Origin: Spirochaetes bacterium ADurb.Bin218
GTDB lineage: Bacteria; Spirochaetota; UBA4802; UBA5550
NCBI GenBank assembly: GCA_002069965.1
Contig: MWCI01000027.1
Span: 1-40,873, forward strand
Direction of reading: 5' to 3'
Length of the DNA: 40,873 nucleotides
The translations under genes and the position numbers were made by a program. The notes beneath the pieces are model-generated. The model was given only the letters and a program-made list of their open reading frames with translations, was not told the DNA's origin and searched no databases. This document shows, one piece after another, positions 19,912-25,596 of the stretch (positions are counted from its first letter, which is position 1; each line of letters starts with the position of its first letter).

Positions 19912-21317
19912 TTACATAAAAAAGCTTACAATCAAACATATAATAAAAGCAACCGTTCCTTCAATTGCAGTTGCAGTTGTATAAATCTTATATGCAATGT
20001 TTACAGGCATATTTGAAAACTGAGATACAACCCAGAAATAAGAGTCATTGGCATGGGATACAACCATTGAGCCAGCACCAATTGCTACAGTAGTAAGAGC
20101 GGGATTAAGCCCGAGAGTAGAAAGCAGTGGCGCCATAATTGAAGCAGTGGTAATAATTGCCACAGTGGATGACCCTTGTGCAGTCTTTAGTGCTGCAGAG
20201 ATTAAAAAGGGCAAAAATATACCAAGATTAAGAGTGCCAAGGTTAACCTTGATAAACTCAACCATTGGAGATCCTTGCAAAACCTTCCCAAAGGAACCCC
20301 CAGCAGCGGTAATAGCAAGAATAATTGCTGCATCCTTTATACCATGACCCATCCATTGATCAACAGCAGTTCCCAATTCGCTTTTTTTAACCAAAAAAAG
20401 ACTCACAATTACTCCAATCATAAGAGCAGTTACAGGATCACCTATGAAGTTTATAAATATATATGTTTTGCTATCCTTTGCGCCAAAGGGAAGACTTGGG
20501 AAAGCAGAAACAGACTTCAACAAGATAAGAACTATTGGAAGAATCAGAGGCAAAAAAGACATAAAGGTACTGGGGAGTTTGCCATATTTGTTTATTAAGT
20601 CAGAATAACTCTCCTCAACCTCTGGCTTTATATCATACTTTTTGCCAATAAAATTTGCCCATATCCACCCAGCAAGAGAGGCAGGTATTGCAGCAATCAG
20701 ACCTATTAAAATTACAGTTCCAATATCAGCCTGCAAAGCTCCTGCTGCTGCCAGAGGCCCTGGAGTTGGAGGAACCATTGTATGAGTTGCATACAAACTA
20801 CAGAGGATTATCTCTGTATGGCTACAAAATATGGAAGAGGAACCATTGTATGAGTTGCATACAAACCAGTAGAAAGAGCAACAGCCATGATAGCCATTGA
20901 TTTACCAGTCTCTGCAGATAAGGCCTTATTAAGAGGAGTGAGTATGACATATCCTGAGTCACAAAAGACAGGAATTGATGTAACATAACCTGCAATATTC
21001 ATCGCCAGAGGAGCCTGCTCTTTGCCAACAATTTTAAGTATAGCCCTTGTCATTGAAAGAGCAGCACCTGTTTTTTCCAGAATATAACCCATAATTGTCC
21101 CTGCTATGATGACAATACCAATATTGGCAAGAGTGCCACCAAAGCCATCTTTAATAGCCTTTATTACATCCATAGCTGGCATGCCTATGGACAAACCATA
21201 AATAAAGGCAATAAGAATTAGAACCACAAAGGCATTAATCTTTGCTCTCCCTGTTGCATAAACGATTAAAATAACCGCAATGAGGAGAAACAAAAGAGAC
21301 AAACCTCCTGAAACCAT
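19912..21317 (-). pseudogene. GntP-family gluconate/glycerate permease interrupted by a 68-bp insertion
   Basis: The N-terminal part (21317 to stop at 20808) and the C-terminal part (about 20796 to 19912) together form a GntP-type H+ symporter with many transmembrane helices. N-terminal GGTLANIGIVIIAGTIMGYI and C-terminal ISAALKTAQGSSTVAIITTA and GAGSMVVSHANDSYFW are family hallmarks. They are separated by a 68-bp insertion containing a second copy of the codons for LYATHTMVP. Removing exactly 68 bp restores a single 445-codon frame, a normal family length. GGAGG precedes the ATG at 21317. As written, the gene is broken unless the ribosome bypasses the insertion or the DNA reverts. Next to glycerate kinase, glycerate or gluconate is the likely substrate. 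Confidence 0.85.
20769..20866 (-). repeat. 30-bp direct repeat flanking a 38-bp hairpin-containing insert in the permease gene
   Basis: The 30-bp sequence at 20769-20798 recurs exactly at 20837-20866. The 38 bp between begin with a perfect inverted repeat TACAGAG / CTCTGTA (7-bp stem, 6-base loop, 20799-20818). The 38 bp are not found next to the other repeat copy, so this is not a simple tandem duplication. The 68-bp period shifts the frame. Confidence 0.9.
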
Positions 21318-21548: not shown

Positions 21549-23174
21549 ATGACTCTGCCAGATAGAAATAATCCCTACAGCTTTAATGAATTCCTGAAAT
21601 GGAGAAAAAATGTAAACTATTATACAGATGATCCATTCATTCAGAGGGCACTAAAGGCCTTTGCAGGTGATTCCTTCAATGAAGCAGACAGGGAGGCCAG
21701 AGAGATCTCTCCAAAGGTTTCCTATCGCTGGAGAGATATGGCAGAGGCAATAGCAGTGCCAGAAAAGCGTCCCTATATTATGCACTATGACGGTCATCAC
21801 AATCGCATAGACAGAATAGTCAGACCAAGAGAGACAGAGATTATGGAAAAAGAGATCTTCTCTGAAGGGCTCTTTGTAAATACCAAATCTCCATGGGTTA
21901 AGCTTATAAAGATGTTTTTGATATATCAAAATGGAGAGGCCTGTATTGCCTGCCCTGTGACATGCACAGAAGGACTTGTAAAGCTTCTTGAGATATATCA
22001 AAGTGAGGAGACCAGATACATATTGCAACACTGCAGAGATGGGATCGATGGGGACTTTGCAATAGGAGCTCAATATCTCTCGGAGATACATGGAGGCTCT
22101 GATGTCCCTGCTAATTTACTTGAAGCTGTTAATGAAAATGGAACATGGAGATTATATGGGAGCAAGTTTTTCTGTTCTGCAACTCACGCAGATTATGTTG
22201 TCATAACAGCAAAACCCCGTGGAAGCGAAGAGGTAGCACTCTTTGTAATGCCATCATGGCTTCCTGGGAACAAAGAAAAAGAAATCCGCAACGGTTACAC
22301 AATTGACAGAATAAAGTGGAAAATGGGAACAAGCGAACTTACAACAGGGGAGATCACATTTAATGGAGCAATTGCATACCCTGTTGGGCCACTCAATCGT
22401 GGGGTTTCCAATGTAGTTTCTATAGTTCTCACATATTCAAGGCTTACAGTGGGATTATCAGCAGCAGCCTTTATGACAAGAGCTTGCAGGGAGGCAAAGG
22501 CCTATGGAGAATTCCGCTATGCCTTTGGCAGAAAAATATCCGATTTTCCTCTTGTTAAGGCACAATTGCAAGAAATCGAAAACTATACAAAAAGAACAAT
22601 TGCAGGAGCATTTAACTTATACAAAGACTTTCTTGAAATTGAAAACAAGCGCCATCTAAAAAAAGATAGCCTCTCCATGGAAGAAAACAAAAAAATATTT
22701 CGTGTCCGAGAACTCATTATGCTTCAAAAAATTACAGCATCTCTGGATTCAACAGATGTTATACGAAACTCCATGTCCATATTTGGAGGTCATGGAGTTA
22801 TGGAAGATTTTTCTTCATTGCCAAGGCTTTACAGGGATTCAGCTATAAATGAGCTATGGGAGGGGCCAAGGAATGTGCTGCTTACCCAGATCCACAGAGA
22901 TCTGCAAAAAAACTCATCGTGGTATAAACCAGATGACTTTATAAGTGATATATTACATGGAAAAGATAAAAATCTAATAAGAGAATTTTCCAGTGAACTT
23001 GAATATCTCCTTGGAATCAGAGACCTTACAAACATAAGCGATGACAACATAAAAATTGCTGGCAGGTGGGATGACTTTACAAAAAGGCTCTTCCATGAAT
23101 ATCAAGAAAAAGCTCTTTCTTACATAGAACAAAAGACAAATAAAAAACTCAGTTATAAATCAAAGAGCCCTTAA
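21549..23174 (+). CDS. Acyl-CoA dehydrogenase family protein (AidB-like)
   Basis: This 541-residue flavoprotein resembles the AidB branch of acyl-CoA dehydrogenases. Recognisable parts are FAD/substrate-contacting IGAQYLSEIHGGSDVPAN near 174-191, W-x-L-YGSKFFCSATHADY near 196-212, the helical domain with RLTVGLSAAAFMTRAC and AFGRKISDFPLVKAQL, and FGGHGVMEDF near 415-424. ELWEGPRNV follows, with Glu438 in the position of the usual catalytic glutamate segment. AidB itself binds DNA and has weak dehydrogenase activity; the substrate here is unknown. A very strong AGGAGG lies 5 bases before the ATG. It runs opposite to the two long paralogues that follow. Confidence 0.82.
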   Translation: MTLPDRNNPYSFNEFLKWRKNVNYYTDDPFIQRALKAFAGDSFNEADREAREISPKVSYRWRDMAEAIAVPEKRPYIMHYDGHHNRIDRIVRPRETEIMEKEIFSEGLFVNTKSPWVKLIKMFLIYQNGEACIACPVTCTEGLVKLLEIYQSEETRYILQHCRDGIDGDFAIGAQYLSEIHGGSDVPANLLEAVNENGTWRLYGSKFFCSATHADYVVITAKPRGSEEVALFVMPSWLPGNKEKEIRNGYTIDRIKWKMGTSELTTGEITFNGAIAYPVGPLNRGVSNVVSIVLTYSRLTVGLSAAAFMTRACREAKAYGEFRYAFGRKISDFPLVKAQLQEIENYTKRTIAGAFNLYKDFLEIENKRHLKKDSLSMEENKKIFRVRELIMLQKITASLDSTDVIRNSMSIFGGHGVMEDFSSLPRLYRDSAINELWEGPRNVLLTQIHRDLQKNSSWYKPDDFISDILHGKDKNLIREFSSELEYLLGIRDLTNISDDNIKIAGRWDDFTKRLFHEYQEKALSYIEQKTNKKLSYKSKSP

Positions 23175-23190
23175 AAATAGGGCTCCTTGA
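23160..23190. terminator. Hairpin between convergent acyl-CoA dehydrogenase genes
   Basis: TCAA-A-GAGCCCT and AGGGCTC-C-TTGA form a 12-position stem with one mismatch around a 7-base loop that contains the stop codon of the rightward gene. T tracts are short on both sides, so it is probably a weak bidirectional terminator. Confidence 0.5.
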
Positions 23191-23223
23191 TTTGCAATTA
23201 AAGTAATTCCAAAAGAAAGAAAA

Positions 23224-24939
23224 TCATGGATTTTGATGATATACATCAATGAGGCTATAAACCTCTTCATTGAGTACTTTTTCAAATTCCTCTTTATTTG
23301 GAACAGGTCGCTTGAACATCTTCTGAATCTTCTCAAGCTGAGCATCTGTATTCAGAGGCTTGCCATAGAGATCAAAGGCATATCTTGAAAAATCCCTTAC
23401 AAATAGGTCAAACATCTGATTTATAACTGAATCAGATATTCCCTCAATATTTGCACTCTCAATAATAAGCTGACCATAAGCAACCATTGTAAAGAGCTCA
23501 CCAACTGCCAGTAGATAGTCAAACTCCATCATCTGTTTTGCAAGATCCTGGCCTGATACCATCAGGTATTCTTTATAAGCCTGAATCTGCTCCAGAAAAA
23601 CCTTTACATTTGCCAGATGAGCTCTTGTGTTATATGCAATATTGTAATCATGGAATTTAGTTTTTGCATAGTTCTTTGTTGGGCCTTGTCTAAAGAGAAA
23701 ATCATCATTTCTATTGTCTGTTATTCTTCCAACCTCCTCAAAAGGTGCAGGCATAAACATGTAACTTGGGATAAGTTTGGCAATGAGAGCCATATTTACA
23801 TGGCGTGTTCCCTCAAGTTTTGGGAAGCCTCTAAGCTCAGCAACAGCCTGTTCAAAATACATATCCTTTTCAAAGCCCCTTGCTGCAATAATGTCCCAGA
23901 GCATTTCATGAGTTTCCTCGCCCTGTATAGCAACCTTCATCTTCATTATTGGATTAAAAAGGAGGTATCTCTTGTCATTCTCATTTGCCACTCTCATATA
24001 ATCAGTTGCTCTAAGGCCAAAAAGCTTCATTCCCATAAGCCTGAGCCATGAATCCATAAAAAGTCTCTTAACATGGGCAAACTCAATAACCTTCTTTCCA
24101 TAGAGAACCCTGTGAGCAGCGTGATTTAAGGCTTCATAGAAAGAGTGAGTAACAATACCTGTAGCACCAGAGCCAATATTAAACTTGCAGATATTGATTG
24201 TATTAAGCATGTCATCCCATGCTTTTTGACCACGAGATAAAATATCTGCCTCTGTTATTGGATAATCATGAAGAGCAAATTCTGCAACAAACTGTTGATT
24301 TACATCAACGATATTCTTTACACACTCATAATTTGGATGAGCAGAGTCTACAACAAAAAATACATACTCATCTGTATCTGCAAACTTTCCAAAAACAGTT
24401 ATTGTACTTGCTACGTTTCCATTACCGATGTAGTATTTGCTGCCATTGGCAACCCATGTTCCATCGCCCTTTGGATAAAGCTTCATTTCTGAGGAATAAA
24501 TGTCAGCACCATGCTCTTTTTCTGATAATCCGAAGGCACAAAGAGCATTCTGCTTTAGTTTTGCAGCAGCCTTATGCTTTGCCTCTTCATTGTCACCAAG
24601 CAAAACAGGATCAAGTCCAAGTGTCGAGACATGGAAAGTATACCAATAAGCAGCACCATAGAAACCACATATCTCAGAAAATTCATACATTCTATATGTA
24701 CTGTAGTACTGATTTGGATCAGATCCATAACCTTTTGGTAAAAAGAGAGTTTCAAAAATTCCCTCTTCAGTAACAAATTTCTGAAAATCTTCGCAAAACT
24801 CCTTTTTGTGATATTGTTCCTTTTGTTTAGCAAGACCTTTCTTTTCAAACCACTCAATGGTTTTGAGCATGATCTCTTTGGATCTTTCGTCAGGATAGTT
24901 CCTGTCACGATACTTTTTTGGATTAAGTAATATGCTCAT
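23224..24939 (-). CDS. Long-form acyl-CoA dehydrogenase (paralogue A)
   Basis: This 571-residue protein has an acyl-CoA dehydrogenase core: AFGLSEKEHGADIYSS (135-150) for the flavin loop, VANGSKYYIGNGN (163-175) for the substrate side, and a helical C-terminal domain with GATGIVTHSFYEALNHAAHRVLYGK. Usual short-chain enzymes have about 380 residues; the extra C-terminal part makes this a long member of unspecified substrate. It aligns end to end with the gene at 25597-27294, indicating an ancient local duplication. AAGGAG precedes the ATG. A structured RNA with a terminator lies about 230 bases upstream on the same strand and could be its leader. Confidence 0.85.
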   Translation of the reverse strand: MSILLNPKKYRDRNYPDERSKEIMLKTIEWFEKKGLAKQKEQYHKKEFCEDFQKFVTEEGIFETLFLPKGYGSDPNQYYSTYRMYEFSEICGFYGAAYWYTFHVSTLGLDPVLLGDNEEAKHKAAAKLKQNALCAFGLSEKEHGADIYSSEMKLYPKGDGTWVANGSKYYIGNGNVASTITVFGKFADTDEYVFFVVDSAHPNYECVKNIVDVNQQFVAEFALHDYPITEADILSRGQKAWDDMLNTINICKFNIGSGATGIVTHSFYEALNHAAHRVLYGKKVIEFAHVKRLFMDSWLRLMGMKLFGLRATDYMRVANENDKRYLLFNPIMKMKVAIQGEETHEMLWDIIAARGFEKDMYFEQAVAELRGFPKLEGTRHVNMALIAKLIPSYMFMPAPFEEVGRITDNRNDDFLFRQGPTKNYAKTKFHDYNIAYNTRAHLANVKVFLEQIQAYKEYLMVSGQDLAKQMMEFDYLLAVGELFTMVAYGQLIIESANIEGISDSVINQMFDLFVRDFSRYAFDLYGKPLNTDAQLEKIQKMFKRPVPNKEEFEKVLNEEVYSLIDVYHQNP

Positions 24940-25171
24940 AAAAAACTCCTTGTAAATTAAAAATAAAGCTTCTTAGCCAAGATCCCCAAAGCAGAATGGC
25001 AAAAGCCAAAGTTTACCTGTAGCTTTAAGATAAAATATTTAAAACTACTTATCATTACAAAAGAAAAGGGATGAATTTTTTGTCAACATAAAATAGAACA
25101 ATATTCGCATAATAATATTTGCATTTATAAATGTGAATATTAATAATATATTAAGGACGCTAAACCTGAAT

Positions 25172-25201
25172 AAAAAAAAGGCCATCCCTTTAGAGATAGC
25201 C
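25172..25201 (-). terminator. Rho-independent terminator of the candidate RNA
   Basis: On the minus strand GGCTATCTC and GGGATGGCC pair over 9 bp (two G-U) around a 4-base loop and are followed by eight T (25179-25172). Confidence 0.8.
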
Positions 25202-25225
25202 CCAAAAACATTAAAACGCGAGGAA

Positions 25226-25288
25226 TCAAAAGTAATGATTCTCTGTAATTTGTAGTAATGTTCCCCCAACATCACCACAAATTAACAT
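25226..25288 (-). CDS. Possible 20-codon leader peptide within the candidate RNA
   Basis: ATG at 25288 with GGGGG 6 bases upstream opens a frame to TGA at 25228-25226. It spans the 17-bp stem exactly, so ribosomes on it would unfold that helix. No run of one amino acid marks it as a classical attenuator leader. It may be chance. Confidence 0.2.
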   Translation of the reverse strand: MLICGDVGGTLLQITENHYF

Positions 25289-25362
25289 TGTAAACCCCCA
25301 AGATTTTGAACCCGTCCAGACGGATCCAATAAAAACATAAAAAATTCACTTTTGGTATTTCA

Positions 25363-25391
25363 ACTATAAAATGGTAAACCAAAAATGTAAA
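25363..25391 (-). promoter_or_regulatory. Promoter of the candidate RNA
   Basis: Minus-strand TTTACA (25391-25386) and TATAGT (25368-25363) are separated by 17 bases. This places transcription start near 25356. A second possible -35/-10 pair (TTGAAA, TATGTT with an 18-base spacer) lies just downstream and would start the RNA near its first hairpin. Confidence 0.6.
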
Positions 25392-25536: not shown

Positions 25537-25567
25537 CAAAAAAAGAAAGGCCCTCAATGAGAGCCTT
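25537..25567 (-). terminator. Terminator after acyl-CoA dehydrogenase paralogue B
   Basis: AAGGCTCTC and GAGGGCCTT form a 9-position stem with one mismatch, followed on the minus strand by TCTTTTTTT. It separates the dehydrogenase transcript from the RNA locus downstream. Confidence 0.75.
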
Positions 25568-25596
25568 CCAGGATAAATCTCAATCTAAATATTAAA

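Follow-up and report, generated by a model that had tools for sequence, protein, structure and literature searches.

A minus-strand unit between two acyl-CoA dehydrogenase-type genes may well be a lineage-specific, stand-alone small RNA (sRNA) gene; the probability of this reading is estimated at about 0.5. The unit lies in the window, the whole stretch of 40,873 nt of Spirochaetes bacterium ADurb.Bin218 DNA that was analyzed. At the sequence level it is intergenic and has its own promoter-like pair, a weak match, and its own intrinsic terminator (Table 1). Several observations argue for the sRNA reading. The promoter-like pair, a compact fold and the terminator are in register, and the closing helix begins with the second nucleotide of the predicted RNA. 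The fold is strong on the minus strand and much weaker on the plus strand. The upstream gene has its own terminator, and the downstream gene a TTGACA of its own, which is kept in relatives without the RNA. Furthermore, the RNA is not 6S RNA and is present in a single copy, hence it is no repeat element. Against this reading stand the lack of any homologue in the genomes searched, a promoter match at chance level, the weak fold of the remaining core and the uniqueness of CCGTCTGGACGG in the genome.

Table 1. Features of the unit and its surroundings (window positions; nt, position in the predicted RNA).
Feature	Position	Strand	Description
Terminator of upstream acyl-CoA dehydrogenase gene	25545..25569	-	Parts that gene from the RNA
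Promoter-like pair TTTACA-17-TATAGT	25363..25391	-	-35 TTTACA from 25391; -10 TATAGT to 25363
Predicted RNA, ~185 nt	25172..25356	-	Ends inferred from promoter spacing and terminator
Closing helix, 5' strand CCAAAA, nt 2-7	25350..25355	-	Pairs with 25207-25202 UUUUGG, nt 150-155; pair probability 0.76-0.99
Hairpin 1, nt 8-67	25290..25349	-	Lower stem with five U-G pairs; inner stem UGGAUCCGU/ACGGGUUCA
12-bp core CCGTCTGGACGG	25312..25323	-	Equals core of ACCGTCTGGACGGT sites 5' of relatives' lipase-like genes
GGGGG, possible Shine-Dalgarno	25295..25299	-	6 nt 5' of ATG 25288
20-codon ORF MLICGDVGGTLLQITENHYF	25226..25288	-	Crosses hairpin 2; start codon in hairpin 2 base
Hairpin 2, nt 70-113	25244..25287	-	17-bp gapless stem 25246-25284, GGGGG loop
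Hairpin 3, nt 114-137	25220..25243	-	GAGAAUCA / UGAUUCCUC, loop UUACUUU
Hairpin 4	25208..25219	-	Small and weak; pair probability 0.68-0.83
Intrinsic terminator with eight T	25172..25201	-	Hairpin 25201-25180 (nt 156-177), T run 25179-25172
Palindrome around ATTTATAAAT	25113..25142		Upstream of downstream gene's promoter, after RNA's terminator
TTGACA of downstream gene's own promoter element (TTGACAAAAAA)	25081..25086	-	3' of RNA's terminator, 5' of start codon

The predicted start, at about A25356, was placed 7 nt past the -10 box and is counted as nt 1, and the 3' end is the end of the T run. In the minimum-energy fold most pairs have a probability above 0.8, and the terminator hairpin stacks directly onto the closing helix. 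The predicted free energy of the RNA is -61.2 kcal/mol (z-score of -6.1 or -6.9 in two runs against dinucleotide shuffles), compared with -29.5 kcal/mol (z-score of -2.5) for the plus strand of the same stretch. A first-pass annotation had described the promoter-like hexamers, several helices, the terminator, the 17-bp stem with its GGGGG loop, the 20-codon ORF across this stem and the location between acyl-CoA dehydrogenase genes, and all of these are present. It had also taken the G-U pairs to imply a strand-specific fold, and the asymmetry between the strands is real. The 12-bp palindrome of hairpin 1, which matches a probable regulator site of relatives, was overlooked at that stage.

Searches for known families and for homologues place the RNA on its own. 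With the covariance models of Rfam 15, the search that had been proposed earlier, no family reaches its gathering score for the RNA, in agreement with the previous assignment to no known class. At E≤10 nothing meaningful is found; the best overlaps (E of 0.24–0.49) are far under the gathering score and cover little beyond the terminator. An identity as 6S RNA was rejected, as RF00013 does not match here and the true 6S RNA of the genome is located on another contig (C12:43437-43615, 86.2 bits). A BLASTN search of 59 relatives and of about 390 genomes of the phylum returned short matches only and no second member; inspection of such matches in L002, L009 and L010 revealed no similar unit. A covariance model built from the single sequence, which has limited power and would miss very diverged homologues, detected no homologue in any of three sets: the order (46 genomes), a phylum sample of about 390 and 15 additional genomes. 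The last are mostly Syntrophomonadaceae, chosen for dehydrogenases 79–87% identical to that of the window. The weak matches of the model that were inspected were rejected: the one in the own genome (C1) falls within an ankyrin-like ORF and that in G002 likewise within a coding ORF, and those in G013 and G017 have hairpin 1 alone in common with the RNA. Phage and plasmid records yielded nothing like the unit, and a degenerate pattern of hairpin 2 has no match in viral contigs. The own genome contains the unit only once and convincing terminal repeats are absent; a repeat element or MITE was thus rejected. Across the order, the phylum sample and the 15 genomes, no set of several homologues with compensatory pair changes was found; accordingly, there are no homologous stems to compare for covariation, and no sign of conservation was found. 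Species-specific sRNAs are common in bacteria. Since no genome searched holds a relative, the RNA is most likely a species-specific sRNA and not a new widespread class, and as an orphan it opens no new class.

By their organism names, the relatives assign the window to Spirochaetia. The gene neighborhood flanking the unit is kept in the congeners G001 and G002 and in the family member G007. Comparison of this intergenic region, also proposed in the first-pass annotation, shows that the RNA element is absent from the locus in all three. The intergenic region comprises 657 nt in the window, about 240–280 nt in the congeners and about 480 nt in G007. The dehydrogenase encoded at 23224-24939, downstream of the unit, is 79–87% identical to proteins of Syntrophomonadaceae (Bacillota) versus 88–89% to those of the spirochaete congeners. 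The former identity is nearly as high as the latter, which suggests gene transfer between syntrophs.

The covariance-model match in G013 shares only CCGTCTGGACGG and the surrounding stem shape with the RNA, and this led to the palindrome in hairpin 1. Among 20 relatives there are nine sites of its 14-bp form ACCGTCNGGACGGT, and at eight of these the variable position is T; the reversed control pattern has zero sites in the same 20 relatives. Several of the nine sites directly precede genes whose secreted products have lipase, thioesterase-like or related domains. The palindrome ACCGTCTGGACGGT recurs in several spirochaete relatives 5' of genes whose secreted products are lipase-like or of other kinds (L159, L160, L162, L163, L167 and others). 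It is probably a regulator site; a text search of the literature yielded no paper containing it. The recurrence of ACCGTCTGGACGGT ahead of the lipase-like genes may be a more general lead than the RNA itself. A TetR gene adjoining the G013 site was considered as the cognate regulator. It is probably not, because orthologues and sites fail to co-occur: G002 has an orthologue without a site and G007 has sites without a close orthologue.

In the own genome, the copy at 25312-25323 is the only exact one of CCGTCTGGACGG, and a close orthologue of the G013 TetR is absent. As, in addition, this TetR does not track with the sites, the match in the window may be a coincidence. Otherwise, the resemblance of hairpin 1 allows two readings: a putative regulator site within the transcribed region of the sRNA, or the remnant of a member of the lipase-like gene set. 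The latter would be the 5' end of a regulated gene (promoter, regulator site, GGGGG ribosome-binding site and ATG) whose body was deleted, so that its start now runs into a terminator. The site-bearing genes of the relatives show GGGG(G) ahead of the ATG, as in the upstream regions ACCGTCTGGACGGT...GGGGGTCATATG and ...GGGGGCTGTTATATG. The order promoter, CCGTCTGGACGG, GGGGG and ATG with 20 codons in the window resembles this arrangement. The stretch from the terminator of the upstream gene to the downstream promoter is also longer than in the congeners, which would fit a relic. However, a deletion by itself explains neither the 17-bp hairpin nor the register between closing helix and terminator. 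Moreover, the 20 codons bear no resemblance to the signal peptides encoded by those genes of the relatives, and the 14-bp site is absent from the congeners. A gene relic is therefore regarded as unlikely.

The strength of the fold bears on a further explanation, in which the unit is functionless insertion debris or a product of chance, i.e. an AT-rich insert that happens to contain one hairpin and a terminator. The fold signal is concentrated. Hairpin 2 alone has a z-score of -7.1 and the 3' part including the terminator one of -3.6, whereas the core without both has a z-score of only -1.9 and is matched or beaten by 10 of 300 shuffles. The promoter-like pair is of ordinary quality (10 of 12 consensus matches), and in this AT-rich region such sites are not enriched over shuffles (23 observed, 27 expected by chance). 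The absence of the element from the locus in both congeners would also fit debris. The 17-bp stem is the longest gapless hairpin of the window on either strand. Shuffling the window as a whole gives stems of at least 17 bp in 18 of 300 cases (6%), but shuffling the intergenic region of the RNA does so in only 12 of 3000 (0.4%). In addition, no shuffle equals the fold of the whole RNA, and the stretch has neither standout mobile-element repeats or terminal inverted repeats nor a second copy in the genome. Debris or chance is clearly unlikely on these grounds.

Terminator-like sites are enriched (10 against 4.5). Among the window's strongest folds is a long hairpin at 23157-23193 between the convergent ORFs 21549-23174 (plus strand) and 23224-24939 (minus strand), likely a bidirectional terminator. 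Elsewhere in the window, a GntP-type permease (19912-21317) is split over two adjacent ORFs. The two match the profile at positions 2-155 and 148-439; a frameshift or an assembly error is the likely cause of this split.

The RNA is on the same strand as the dehydrogenase gene 23224-24939 and upstream of it, and the short ORF crosses hairpin 2. The first-pass annotation had considered an attenuating leader; in such a leader, translation of the 20 codons would shift the fold and the terminator would be conditional. The region between the RNA and the gene disfavors this. The terminator and the downstream start codon are about 230 nt apart, and between them lie the gene's own TTGACAAAAAA element and the palindrome around ATTTATAAAT. 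The TTGACAAAAAA element is common to the window, G002, G007 and another spirochaete, L082 (the same stretch is N in G001). Since relatives without the RNA keep the TTGACA, the RNA appears as an insertion-like, independent unit. The ensemble contains no antiterminator either: the terminator pairs have probabilities of 0.96–1.0 and no competing helix exceeds 0.15. Furthermore, the ORF lacks a run of codons for any regulatory amino acid. A leader is thus very unlikely. Of the original interpretation, the structured RNA unit with promoter and terminator and without a known class is upheld by the anatomy, the Rfam searches and the strand-specific fold, and the attenuating leader is disfavored.

The palindrome around ATTTATAAAT is a possible operator, and a similar one lies at the corresponding position in G001 and G002. 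In L073, L082 and L093 the spacer of the dehydrogenase promoter holds GAACA(A/G)TGTT, in L082 as the palindrome AAGAACAGTGTTCTT. In the window (25081-25060) TTGACAAAAAA is kept and this motif is absent. On the reverse strand just upstream of the L082 dehydrogenase promoter, a gene resembling a TetR-type regulator was recognized by eye only.

An ORF of 20 codons is in itself no evidence for translation. By geometry only, its translation could possibly control the fold of the RNA. That the unit is a short mRNA encoding these 20 residues is hardly plausible: the GGGGG 6 nt ahead of the ATG would suit it, but the start codon lies within the base of hairpin 2, no relative was found at the DNA level and no membrane-spanning stretch is obvious in the peptide.

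If the unit is a stand-alone sRNA gene, RNA polymerase would start near 25356, about 7 nt past the -10 box, and transcription would end at the intrinsic terminator to give an RNA of about 185 nt. The 5' end of this RNA would be locked to the bases directly ahead of the terminator, forming a closed junction with three to four hairpins and protecting both ends. Most likely, the sRNA would act in trans by base pairing via its exposed loops, GGGGG of hairpin 2 and UUACUUU of hairpin 3. A DNA-binding regulator of the kind that marks the relatives' lipase-like genes may control transcription at CCGTCTGGACGG, about +34 to +45. A wider proposal, in which CCGTCTGGACGG is both DNA operator and RNA stem of a new spirochaete sRNA tied to lipid metabolism that tunes fatty-acid degradation genes, is highly speculative and improbable. 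If expressed, the RNA would be an sRNA located among genes for fatty-acid degradation in a spirochaete lineage that is uncultured. It would then be a candidate link from lipid sensing to post-transcriptional control.

Among known systems, an attenuation leader with a leader peptide also has a short ORF, hairpins and a terminator 5' of a metabolic gene. The present unit differs from it in the separate promoter element of the downstream gene and in the lack of a competing antiterminator and of a codon run. 6S RNA (RF00013) is comparable in its length of about 185 nt and in its paired 5' and 3' ends. In place of the long stem with a central bubble of 6S RNA, the predicted fold has several hairpins on a junction, and there is no family match. 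The unit is closest in outline to lineage-specific trans-acting sRNAs such as those of Borrelia burgdorferi, which are intergenic, have their own promoter and terminator and give no notable protein product (PMC5216591). The intergenic sRNAs of B. burgdorferi were mapped by RNA-seq (PMC5216591), whereas the RNA described here is a prediction from its sequence.
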